DNA from: Clostridiisalibacter paucivorans DSM 22131
Lineage (GTDB): Bacteria > Bacillota > Clostridia > Tissierellales > Clostridiisalibacteraceae
Length of the DNA stretch: 33,694 bases
Assembly (NCBI RefSeq): GCF_000620125.1
Contig: NZ_KK211076.1
Coordinates: 1-33,694, forward strand
Reading direction: 5' to 3'
The notes under the pieces are model-generated. The model had not been told where the DNA came from. It worked only from the letters and a program-made list of their open reading frames with translations, and made no database searches. The translations under genes were made by a program, and so were the position numbers. Numbering within the stretch: position 1 is the stretch's first letter; every line of letters starts with the position of its first letter. Shown piece after piece: positions 4,875 to 33,694 of this stretch.

Positions 4875-4980
4875 AGTAAACCCTCCTTCGGTAACTGGCT
4901 GCCATTTTACAGGCCCTTTAGCTTTGCGTCCTTAGGTTTCCCTAAGTTTGCCTTTATCGTTTGAAAGTTTACTTTCAAAC
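4875..4980 (-). promoter_or_regulatory. Candidate translational expression platform around the second aptamer
   Basis: In the transcript a perfect hairpin, GTTTGAAAGT/ACTTTCAAAC with a 2-base loop (4959-4980), lies just 5' of the aptamer. Part of it, AGTAAACTTTC (4963-4973), can instead pair over 11 positions (two of them G-U) with GAGGGTTTACT (4875-4885). The latter contains the Shine-Dalgarno sequence and reaches the start codon. The two pairings exclude each other and the second would close off the aptamer and hide the ribosome-binding site. The complementarity is seen directly; the switching mechanism is inference. Confidence 0.5.
4889..4959 (-). ncRNA. Cyclic di-GMP-I (GEMM) riboswitch, gene-proximal copy
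   Basis: Read on the minus strand this holds the GEMM-I landmarks in order: GGCAAAC, a short hairpin with a GAAA loop (TTAGGGAAACCTAA), GGACGCAAAGC, GGGCC, then the 3' hairpin GGCAGCCAGTTACC. The 3' end runs straight into GAAGGAGGG, the ribosome-binding site of the transglutaminase-like gene. Placement suggests control of translation. It is the second aptamer of a tandem pair. Confidence 0.9.
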
Positions 4981-5013
4981 AATATAATTAAACATTTATT
5001 TTAATATATAAAT

Positions 5014-5036
5014 AAAAAAACTAACCGCTTCGGTAG
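5014..5036 (-). terminator. Riboswitch-coupled terminator of the upstream aptamer
   Basis: On the transcript CTACCG-AAG-CGGTTAG forms a hairpin (one bulged base) followed by seven Ts (5014-5020). Its 5' arm, CTACCG, is the 3' strand of the aptamer's last hairpin, so aptamer folding and terminator folding compete. Established logic for such overlaps predicts ligand-stabilised read-through, that is, an ON switch. Confidence 0.65.
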
Positions 5037-5101
5037 CTGGCTGCCATTTCAAAGGCCCTTTAGCTTTGCGTCCCTAAGTTTCCCTAGGTTTGCTATTATC
5101 G
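5031..5101 (-). ncRNA. Cyclic di-GMP-I (GEMM) riboswitch, gene-distal copy
   Basis: On the minus strand it shows AGCAAAC, the hairpin CTAGGGAAACTTAG, GGGACGCAAAGC, GGGCC and GGCAGCCAGCTACC, as in GEMM-I aptamers. It differs from the proximal copy at scattered positions but keeps the ligand-site and GAAA-loop landmarks. A terminator hairpin that competes with its 3' end lies directly downstream, followed 55 bases later by the second aptamer. Confidence 0.9.
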
Positions 5102-7229: not shown

Positions 7230-7829
7230 TTATTGATCATCTTCTTCTGGAGCTGGTGTTGGATCTACAGGTGCTGACCATTCTTTTACACCTACTGGAA
7301 GTTCTGTTAATTCCCAAGTATCCTTATATGCCTCATGTGATGCCTGCACAGCTTCAGCCTTTACTGATATCTTTAAAACTGCTCCTTGATAATCATTACT
7401 TGTTTCAGCCCCTATAAATTCTACTTCATCTAATAACAGACTTGTTTCTTCTCCTTCATTTAAAATATGTTTGTAATAATAATAATCCCCTTGTTTTACC
7501 CAATCAGAATTATTTGCAAGAATTAAATCTACATTTCCACTGGAAAGGTCATAGCCCTCTTTATGCCATTCTGGAGTTAAGCTAACCCTTACATAACTCT
7601 TCTTAGAACCATTACTTATTACTGATACGTCTTTATTAGTTGTGTCCCCTGGATTCCAATTAGTTATATCTGAAAAACCATGTTCATTAACTTCTATCTC
7701 TACTGTCCCTGCTGTAAATGCATTTACTACTGGCTCTGGATTACTTGTAAACCAAGCCATAGTTCCTCCAACAACTAAAAGTGATAACAATGCAACCGTT
7801 GATAAAATAACCATTAATCTCTTTTTCAT
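7230..7829 (-). CDS. TasA/camelysin-like matrix fibre protein (SipW-type signal peptide)
   Basis: A 199-residue secreted protein. The N-terminus has Lys-Lys-Arg, a hydrophobic core and GGTMAWFTSNPEPVVNAFTAG, the signature of the TasA/CalY family whose signal peptides are cut by the SipW peptidase. The mature part is a predicted beta-sandwich (TVEIEVNEHG, NWNPGDTTNKDVSVISNGSKKSYVRV, LLLDEVEFIGAET). Proteins of this family assemble into biofilm fibres or act as camelysins. It ends in an acidic, proline-rich tail (PTPAPEEDDQ) with no anchor signal. Start at ATG 7829 with AAGGAGGT. A c-di-GMP-I riboswitch precedes it and the SipW gene lies just upstream, so both processing enzyme and ligand control are linked to it. 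Confidence 0.88.
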   Translation of the reverse strand: MKKRLMVILSTVALLSLLVVGGTMAWFTSNPEPVVNAFTAGTVEIEVNEHGFSDITNWNPGDTTNKDVSVISNGSKKSYVRVSLTPEWHKEGYDLSSGNVDLILANNSDWVKQGDYYYYKHILNEGEETSLLLDEVEFIGAETSNDYQGAVLKISVKAEAVQASHEAYKDTWELTELPVGVKEWSAPVDPTPAPEEDDQ

Positions 7830-25093: not shown

Positions 25094-25145
25094 TTTTATA
25101 TAGGCATACATATTCGATGTCAGTACTTTGATAGGAGGATACAAT

Positions 25146-27746
25146 ATGAGGATTGCATATAGCATAGCATTATATATTATTCCACCAATTATACTATTTT
25201 TTTCATCTTTTTCTTATGCCCAAAGATCTACTATAAAGTTACAATTAGATGAAAATTATCCTCCTTTTTCTTTAAAATATAATAATTATATATATGGATT
25301 TGATAAAGATTTAATGAATCTAATATTTAATAATAAAGATTATATTTTAAAGTATTCTTCTGGCTCTTGGAAGGATTTATTGACAAATGTAAAAAAAGAC
25401 AATATACATATAACAAGCTTGATTGCTAAAAATAAAGAGAGGGAAAAATTCCTTTTCTTTACTAAACCAGTGTTACAGTCATATACAGGAGTATATTCTA
25501 TTAAAAATTTTATTGACGTCTCATTAGAAAATTTGAGTCAGTATAAAATAGGTGTAGTAGATAGTTATTATGAAGAAGGCATACTGAGAGATATATTGAA
25601 TATAGATGACTACATAACCTACGAAAATCCCAATGACCTCATACATGGACTTATGTCTCAAGAGGTAGATATAGTGTTTTCAAACCAAGATGTAATGGAT
25701 TATTATATAATTCAAAAAAACTTAAAATCTATAATTATCCCTAGAATAACTAATAGATTTCCAGTGGACTTTTGTTATGGCATTAATAAGTCACATCCCG
25801 AATTAGTAAAATATATAAACAATCGCATTGAAGAATTGAAAAAAAATGGTATCTATGAGGAATTATATATTAAATATTTTTATGATCATTCTCAAGACTA
25901 TATGAGAAAAAAACAATATAAGACTTATTTTATAATTTCTATTTCTTTTATTCTTCTAATCATAATATTTATTTTTACAAGATTATATATAAAATACCTT
26001 AGACAAAAGATAACAAAAGAAAAGTCACTATCTCAAAATATTATAGATAATTCCAATATCTTTATAGTTCTATGGAAGATAGATGGCAGTATCATCTCTA
26101 TAAACAAATTTACTGAAAGAACTATAGGATATAGTGAAGAATACATAAGATTTAAGAAATGGGATCAATTTGTAGACTTTTCCAGTACAAATGTGGATAA
26201 AAATTTCATAATAGAAAAAGTAAATTCTGGTATTAATTTAGAGAATATTATAGCCCCCATAATATCTAAAGACAATAAAAAAATAGATGTTTCATGGAAT
26301 ATATGTATATTACCTCATATGGATAATGAAAAGATCTTTGGTATATCCATGGGTATCGATATATCTCAAAGGTTAAAAACAGAAAATCAACTTACTAATA
26401 CAATAGAAGAATACAAACAGGCACAGAAAAAAATAAAGTATATGGCATATTATGATAGCTTGACACAACTACCAAATAAAATAAATTTTAAATCTATGCT
26501 GACAAACTACATTAGCAACGCAATTAAAGATAATACAAAAATAGCAATACTATTTCTTGATTTAGATAATTTTAAAGCAGTAAATGATACCTTTGGCCAT
26601 TCCACTGGAGATACATTGATAAAAAAAGTAGCCTATAGACTTAAGTCCATATCTACTGGTCAAGTTTCAGTGGCAAGGATGGGAGGAGATGAATTTATAT
26701 TATCTATTACTAATATATACTCCCGTAGAGAAATAATAGATACATTAGAAGAAATAATAAACTTATTTAATACTCCATTTAATATAAATAATCGCAACCT
26801 CTATATAAGTGCTAGCATAGGTATTTCCATATATCCTGATAATGGTGTTACAGAACAATCTTTATTTAGAAATGCTGATGTAGCAATGTATAAGGCTAAA
26901 AAACAAGGAAAAAATAAGTATCACTTCTTTACCAATGCCCTATATGAAGATACTCTAAAGAGTTTAGAATATGAACAAGATTTGAGAATGGCATTATCTA
27001 GAAAAGAATTGGAATTACACTATCAACCAATTATAGATATATCAAAACATAAAATAATCTCTGTAGAAGGATTGTTACGATGGAGACATCAGTCTAAAGG
27101 AATGATATCACCAATGGATTTCATTCCCATAGCTGAAGAAACTGGACTTATTATTCCTATAGGTGAATGGGTAATAGAATCTGCATGTTCTCAATTGGTA
27201 AAATGGAGAAAACAAGGTATAAAAAATATAAAGATGTCTATTAATTTATCTCCATATCAAATCCAATATAGTAATCTAAGCAATACTATAAAAGATATAT
27301 TGGATAAAACATCTTGTCCTGCTGAACATTTACAACTTGAAATAACCGAATCAATGGCAATAGTAGACTTAGATAAAACTATATATTTCTTAAGAGAAAT
27401 GAAGGCTTTAGGAGTAAAGATAGCCCTTGATGACTTTGGTACAGGCTATTCTGGTCTAAATTATCTTGCTAAATTACCCATAGATACTGTGAAAATAGAT
27501 AAAGAATTCATAAAAGAAATACCTAATAATTGTCATTGTAGTTCTTTATTAAATGCCATAATAGAATTATCTCATCAATTGGGAAAAGATGTTATTGCTG
27601 AAGGTGTAGAAAATAAAATACAACTTGATTTATTAAATTCCTATAAATGTGATATGGTTCAAGGATATTATTTTAGCAAACCACTATCATCTTTAAAAAC
27701 TTTTGAATTTATGAAAGGCTTTGATATAGATACTGGAAAAGAATAG
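25146..27746 (+). CDS. Membrane c-di-GMP enzyme: solute-binding sensor, PAS, GGDEF and EAL
   Basis: About 866 residues. Order: signal-like N-terminus; family-3 solute-binding domain outside the membrane (about 25-255; LQLDENYPPFSLKYNNYIYGFDKDLM); membrane helix near 260-282; PAS domain (about 295-400); GGDEF domain with intact GGDEF at 513-517; EAL domain with EGL at 641-643, ITES, DDFGTGYSGL (Asp762, Asp763), VKIDKEFI, AEGVEN and QGYYFSKP. The usual inhibitory RxxD before GGDEF is absent (TGQV). EAL metal residues appear complete. It could make, degrade, or both make and degrade c-di-GMP according to an external ligand. TTG 25128 is in frame, but AGGAGG and ATG 25146 fix the start. Confidence 0.93.
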   Translation: MRIAYSIALYIIPPIILFFSSFSYAQRSTIKLQLDENYPPFSLKYNNYIYGFDKDLMNLIFNNKDYILKYSSGSWKDLLTNVKKDNIHITSLIAKNKEREKFLFFTKPVLQSYTGVYSIKNFIDVSLENLSQYKIGVVDSYYEEGILRDILNIDDYITYENPNDLIHGLMSQEVDIVFSNQDVMDYYIIQKNLKSIIIPRITNRFPVDFCYGINKSHPELVKYINNRIEELKKNGIYEELYIKYFYDHSQDYMRKKQYKTYFIISISFILLIIIFIFTRLYIKYLRQKITKEKSLSQNIIDNSNIFIVLWKIDGSIISINKFTERTIGYSEEYIRFKKWDQFVDFSSTNVDKNFIIEKVNSGINLENIIAPIISKDNKKIDVSWNICILPHMDNEKIFGISMGIDISQRLKTENQLTNTIEEYKQAQKKIKYMAYYDSLTQLPNKINFKSMLTNYISNAIKDNTKIAILFLDLDNFKAVNDTFGHSTGDTLIKKVAYRLKSISTGQVSVARMGGDEFILSITNIYSRREIIDTLEEIINLFNTPFNINNRNLYISASIGISIYPDNGVTEQSLFRNADVAMYKAKKQGKNKYHFFTNALYEDTLKSLEYEQDLRMALSRKELELHYQPIIDISKHKIISVEGLLRWRHQSKGMISPMDFIPIAEETGLIIPIGEWVIESACSQLVKWRKQGIKNIKMSINLSPYQIQYSNLSNTIKDILDKTSCPAEHLQLEITESMAIVDLDKTIYFLREMKALGVKIALDDFGTGYSGLNYLAKLPIDTVKIDKEFIKEIPNNCHCSSLLNAIIELSHQLGKDVIAEGVENKIQLDLLNSYKCDMVQGYYFSKPLSSLKTFEFMKGFDIDTGKE

Positions 27747-33524: not shown

Positions 33525-33694
33525 CATTCAGCATAGTATATGTAAAGTAATAACAAACCACAAGAATAAAAATCCGAATCAGGATAGTAAGAAGTTTCAA
33601 TTCCTCATAGGTAAAGTAGTAACATCAACAAGGCAAAGAACCTTATCCAGAGTTTTATGAGTTTCAATTCCTCATAGGTAAAGTAATAACTTTG
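33525..33694 (-). CRISPR. Leader-distal end of a type I-B-like CRISPR array
   Basis: There are two 30-base repeats at 33594-33623 and 33661-33690, reading GTTTCAATTCCTCATAGGTA then AAGTARTAAC on plus, with one difference (GTAGTAAC versus GTAATAAC). The spacer between them is 37 bases (33624-33660). A decayed repeat at 33525-33554 keeps TGTAAAGTAATAAC plus part of the other end, and the spacer before it is 39 bases. On the minus strand the repeat ends ATTGAAAC, the usual Cas6-generated handle, so transcription is leftward. The decayed repeat on the left is then the trailer end, and the leader lies beyond the right edge. Confidence 0.9.

Follow-up and report, generated by a model that had tools for sequence, protein, structure and literature searches.

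What is gained by placing two sensors of the same class, one behind the other, in front of a single gene? We address this question for a locus of Clostridiisalibacter paucivorans DSM 22131 that lies within the window analysed here, the whole stretch of 33,694 nucleotides from contig NZ_KK211076.1. An initial annotation of this DNA had described two complete GEMM-I aptamers preceding one secreted transglutaminase-like gene, and this description holds. Both leader aptamers are full-length covariance-model matches that exceed the Rfam gathering score, the gene product contains a PF01841 transglutaminase core (E 1e-22), and a hydrophobic N-terminus (a signal sequence) and Cys/His/Asp motifs can be read directly in its translation. 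The elements are as follows.

5104-5029, minus strand: first c-di-GMP-I aptamer (aptamer 1), Rfam RF01051, 65.7 bits, with A at position 20.
4961-4886, minus strand: second c-di-GMP-I aptamer (aptamer 2), Rfam RF03167, 65.5 bits, with G at position 20.
4874-4077, minus strand: the regulated gene, encoding 265 amino acids with a transglutaminase core and a signal peptide.

Upstream of this gene are genes for a SipW-like peptidase, two camelysin-like proteins, a PAS protein and a sortase. A search of the whole 3.25-Mb genome found only three c-di-GMP-I aptamers and all are in the window, the third being at 7945-7870 on the minus strand. This third aptamer also scores above the Rfam gathering score, has A at position 20 and precedes the gene for a BsaA/TasA-like SipW-dependent matrix protein (7230-7829), with a platform that includes an A/U-rich stem just 5' of the Shine-Dalgarno (SD) sequence. 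A GGDEF-EAL protein encoded at 25128-27746 on the plus strand shares the window with all three aptamers, and the genome encodes 14 GGDEF and 6 EAL domains in total. A search of the same genome for c-di-GMP-II aptamers gave no match, but its controls were unmatched too, so this does not show their absence. At the extreme end of the window (33661-33690, plus strand) the sequence matches RF01315, a CRISPR direct repeat, and an array may extend further.

The two leader aptamers differ at position 20, which the initial annotation did not remark upon, and this raises the question of whether they sense the same molecule. Variants that prefer cGAMP commonly have A here (PMC9481103), as would suit a two-ligand gate in which aptamer 1 senses 3',3'-cGAMP and aptamer 2 senses c-di-GMP. 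However, among relatives the two bases swap places between first and second aptamers, and no changed GGDEF domain was seen in this genome. Known Hypr cGAMP synthases are altered at the Asp of the GHxxGD motif, and this residue is kept in all 12 readable of the 14 GGDEF domains. For these two reasons we set the cGAMP reading of aptamer 1 aside as highly improbable, and c-di-GMP as the ligand of both aptamers is the simplest reading. By analogy with Bc3-5, in which a G-to-A change appeared to reduce the c-di-GMP response (PMC4759541), the A at position 20 may lower the affinity of aptamer 1.

We looked for orthologs of the regulated gene in 249 genomes belonging to the order and 391 belonging to the class. 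Within the order, close orthologs mostly have an upstream c-di-GMP-I aptamer, usually with the SD right behind it, and many orthologs in the wider class have such an aptamer as well. A search of genome contigs with the single protein found one distant relative, without a riboswitch, plasmids yielded nothing beyond short aptamer-level matches, and phages nothing beyond distant protein relatives.

The wiring of aptamer 2 is the clearer of the two, and involves one strand for which two structures compete.

4973-4963, minus strand: anti-SD strand, the 5' arm of the SD-covering helix, identified from pairing, covariation and ensemble computation.
4885-4875, minus strand: 3' arm of the SD-covering helix with most of the GGAGGG inside it, identified from reading, covariation and ensemble computation.
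4983-4956, minus strand: hairpin that takes up the anti-SD strand, AUUGUUUGAAAG-UAAA-CUUUCAAACGAU, -11.2 kcal/mol.

Direct reading places aptamer 2 immediately next to the GGAGGG, as had been seen initially, and the proposed pairing over the SD is exact: 4973-4963 and 4885-4875 form 11 bp including two G-U pairs, and a duplex as good or better arose in one of 20,000 shuffles of both arms. Covariation of this pairing had been set beforehand as the test on which the proposal was to stand or fall, and it is present. Among 47 distinct SD-abutting leaders, the SD and anti-SD arms of one genome pair with a mean of -8.84 kcal/mol, compared with -6.68 kcal/mol for arms combined from different genomes (z -7.6, 0 of 2000 permutations); when the set is thinned to 32 leaders z is -5.5, and the distal half of the helix alone in the thinned set is matched in 54 of 2000. 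In an alignment of 40 leaders, five of which had been moved by one base at the spacer beforehand as a hand-made choice, 83% of the cells of the 11-pair helix are paired, as against 46-64% when the arms are slid by one to three columns. Changes on both sides are found in eight of the 11 pairs of this alignment, and the covariation score was reached by 0 of 500 shuffles, a significance that, as in the other covariation tests, is overstated because the sequences are related. The SD-covering pairing thus recurs, with covariation, in orthologous leaders across the Clostridia.

The 12-bp hairpin at 4983-4956, which is absent from the initial annotation, rivals the SD arm for the anti-SD strand. It is more stable than expected from dinucleotide shuffles (z -4.7), and comparable hairpins lie upstream in many leaders, with a mean z of -1.18 over 53 leaders. 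In the computed ligand-free ensemble this hairpin is ahead by 4.7 kcal/mol and most of the SD is unpaired, whereas imposing the extended P1 state of aptamer 2 pairs the SD. The arrangement therefore has both structural hallmarks of translational OFF control, namely a helix at the base of the aptamer with the SD inside it and a mutually exclusive alternative to this helix. P1 residues increase ligand affinity in this riboswitch class (PMC9262584), so ligand should push the leader toward the closed, SD-paired form, which would turn translation off. Because of the covariation of the SD-covering helix and the competing hairpin on the anti-SD strand, we consider it very likely that aptamer 2 is a ligand-OFF translational switch, a sign that had previously been put forward only conditionally and is now well supported.

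The role of aptamer 1 is more difficult to assign, in that one strand in front of a U-tract has two partners.

5111-5104, minus strand: 5' strand of the extended P1 of aptamer 1, AACUAUCC, with seven of eight positions paired with 5026-5019.
5026-5019, minus strand: 3' strand of the extended P1 of aptamer 1 and also the 3' arm of the local hairpin, the two partners being mutually exclusive.
5038-5019, minus strand: weak terminator-like hairpin, AGCUACCG-AAG-CGGUUAGUU, -5.3 kcal/mol, with a bulge.
5020-5014, minus strand: U7 tract, by direct reading.

Aptamer 1 had been described as coupled to a terminator built from its own 3' strand, and hence as ligand-ON by established logic. The hairpin at 5038-5019 and the U7 tract are indeed present and the layout is that of known ON switches, but the hairpin is weak, was not listed by a mechanical terminator scan, and competes for its 3' arm with the extended P1 (5111-5104/5026-5019), which had not been mentioned. 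The two structures end at the same U-tract and differ by 1-2 kcal/mol. In 16 other tandem leaders, all from more distant genomes, no hairpin is as stable (the best is -4.2 kcal/mol and most are -2.8 or weaker), so that a terminator conserved among homologs, as transcriptional ON control at aptamer 1 would lead one to expect, is found in 0 of 16. What is conserved in the first aptamers of tandem leaders is the P1 complementarity, which covaries (z -4.7). In most other tandem leaders P1 of the first aptamer leads straight into a U-tract; U-runs after these aptamers are longer than those after SD-abutting ones (mean 5.8 versus 4.2, p 0.001), and AGUUUUU is invariant among ten aligned first aptamers.

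These features bear directly on the possibility that the pair acts as a band-pass filter, in which aptamer 1 would be a transcriptional ON switch through the hairpin at 5038-5019 and aptamer 2 a translational OFF switch, with expression peaking at intermediate c-di-GMP. The arms of the hairpin are the P3 and P1 3' strands of aptamer 1 and it is mutually exclusive with the folded aptamer, following the same logic as in the ON switches Bc3-5 (PMC4759541) and pilM (PMC9262584), and the near-isoenergetic folds of aptamer 1 are switch-like. Against this, the hairpin is not only weak and bulged but also the only one of its stability among the tandem leaders compared, and the ligand-bound P1 would adjoin the same U-tract. 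A peak at intermediate ligand also requires aptamer 1 to respond at the lower concentrations, whereas an A at position 20 appeared to lower the response in Bc3-5 (PMC4759541) and transcriptional switches would usually be expected to require more ligand than translational ones. We therefore regard a band-pass pair as rather unlikely.

Comparison with related leaders provides further indications of the sign of aptamer 1. In one family with a single aptamer and a clear terminator (f19), the aptamer core is complementary to the 5' arm of the terminator in nearly all of 19 leaders, a classic OFF layout that predicts ligand-OFF behavior, and by inspection the leaders of family f70 and the L093 leader of family f9 look OFF-like at the first aptamer. 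Aptamer 1 of the window aligns with the first aptamer of family f39, including TTAGTTTTTTTATTT, and f39 lacks the local hairpin; on the protein tree f39 groups near the window protein with moderate support (82/74). A search for further f39 members that might contain intermediates of aptamer 1 yielded one new tandem leader, L178, also without the GCGG that follows aptamer 1 in the window and goes with its local hairpin. OFF at aptamer 1 is more likely than ON, but this preference leans on the relatives, and platforms of this kind can flip. Counting against OFF is the local hairpin at the U-tract, which occurs in the window alone and could terminate transcription in the ligand-free state, giving an ON response. 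Further points against it are that aptamer 1 has a short P1 rich in A and U, that the literature searched gave no example of P1 itself working as a terminator, and that part of the U-run may be a relic of an SD-to-AUG spacer.

A further possibility is that aptamer 1 arose by duplication of an aptamer-SD-start unit and is now decaying, with little if any effect on regulation, leaving aptamer 2 in sole control. By eye, the region 3' of aptamer 1 resembles an eroded SD, a U-rich spacer and a lost ATG when set beside single-aptamer leaders, and tandem leaders were gained or lost at least four times on the protein tree. However, aptamer 1 retains a full-length match of 65.7 bits, P1 of first aptamers covaries, and the U-runs have lengthened rather than decayed; we consider an inert aptamer 1 improbable. 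Among the relatives we note that the first aptamer of leader L039 is followed by its own SD, an ATG and a short signal-peptide-like open reading frame, which looks like the remnant of a duplicated gene start. Leader L116 contains a separate terminator-like hairpin, AAAGACTTC...GAAGTCTTTTTT, between its two aptamers (1120-1500), and L095 (G052:C11) has three consecutive c-di-GMP-I aptamers with terminator-like hairpins after the first two.

The two aptamers share a further complementarity in families f39 and f14, between the 5' P1 strand of the first and the anti-SD strand of the second (permutation z -3.0, 2 of 2000), as seen in L115, L116 and L113 of f39 and in L060, L061 and L063 of f14. This makes a relay possible there, in which ligand at aptamer 1 would free the strand that closes the SD. 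The corresponding pairing is absent from the window (-2.0 and -3.7 kcal/mol), and we have dropped the relay as an explanation of this locus.

On balance we favor a two-stage c-di-GMP repressor, OFF at both aptamers, of the secreted transglutaminase-like enzyme. The parts, their alternative pairings and the covariation are computed, and from these we infer both ligand responses and the sign of aptamer 1. Without ligand, the strand 5' of aptamer 2 would fold into the 4983-4956 hairpin, leaving the SD free for translation. With c-di-GMP, aptamer 2 would fold and its P1 would extend across 4973-4963/4885-4875 to close the SD, while at aptamer 1 the ligand-stabilised P1 would abut the U7 tract and favor termination, a response of the same sign. 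This configuration is preferred to the band-pass pair because the local hairpin is unmatched in the 16 tandem leaders, because P1 and the U-tract are shared, and because the terminator-type relatives read as OFF. The initial annotation had offered ON/OFF or ON/ON as the logic of the pair; it was right to consider OFF for the second switch, but OFF at both, which the relatives favor, was missing from its options.

Several known systems share parts of this design. Tandem c-di-GMP-I aptamers are enriched before COG1305 transglutaminase-like genes in the Bacillota (Morales and Merino 2025, PMC12452182), and these doublets are expected there to give a pseudo-cooperative response. The window has this aptamer class in front of this gene family, again as a doublet, whereas we found no description there of the SD-covering P1, of the hairpin that competes with it or of the U-tract variant. 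A 2022 survey counted 347 tandem c-di-GMP-I doublets and defined bi-mechanism tandems, such as SAM-II/SAM-V and others, in which one ligand is sensed twice, at transcription and at translation (PMC9481103), as may be so here; unlike in those tandems, the window uses the c-di-GMP-I class for both sensors, and for aptamer 1 a transcriptional role and its sign are putative. The Bc3-4-5 triple c-di-GMP-I riboswitch of Bacillus thuringiensis is likewise a tandem, and its terminator also spans the P3 and P1 3' strands as does the window hairpin, but its three units are all transcriptional ON switches and none covers an SD (PMC4759541). Cd1 (OFF) and pilM (ON) illustrate how homologous cyclic-dinucleotide aptamers give opposite outputs through platform wiring, although these are single aptamers with transcriptional control only (PMC9262584), and the Bc1 c-di-GMP-I leader shows incoherent transcription-translation regulation (PMC11218506). 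In the literature searched we did not find a description of an SD-covering P1 with a competing hairpin and its apparent conversion to a U-tract attenuator after duplication. The papers found on band-pass riboswitches come mostly from synthetic biology, and their titles and abstracts gave no natural example; if aptamer 1 proved to be an ON switch, the pair would be a natural one.

The data suggest a route by which a translational switch is duplicated and one copy becomes an upstream attenuator. They also suggest that high c-di-GMP turns off a secreted cysteine-type enzyme encoded beside sortase, SipW-like and matrix-protein genes, which may parallel, by analogy only, systems in which c-di-GMP shields adhesins from a secreted protease. 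The comparisons give the reported enrichment of these tandems a mechanism that can be tested: the gene would be repressed when its SD is occluded, a dedicated hairpin would compete for the occluding strand, and the arrangement recurs in many Clostridia.
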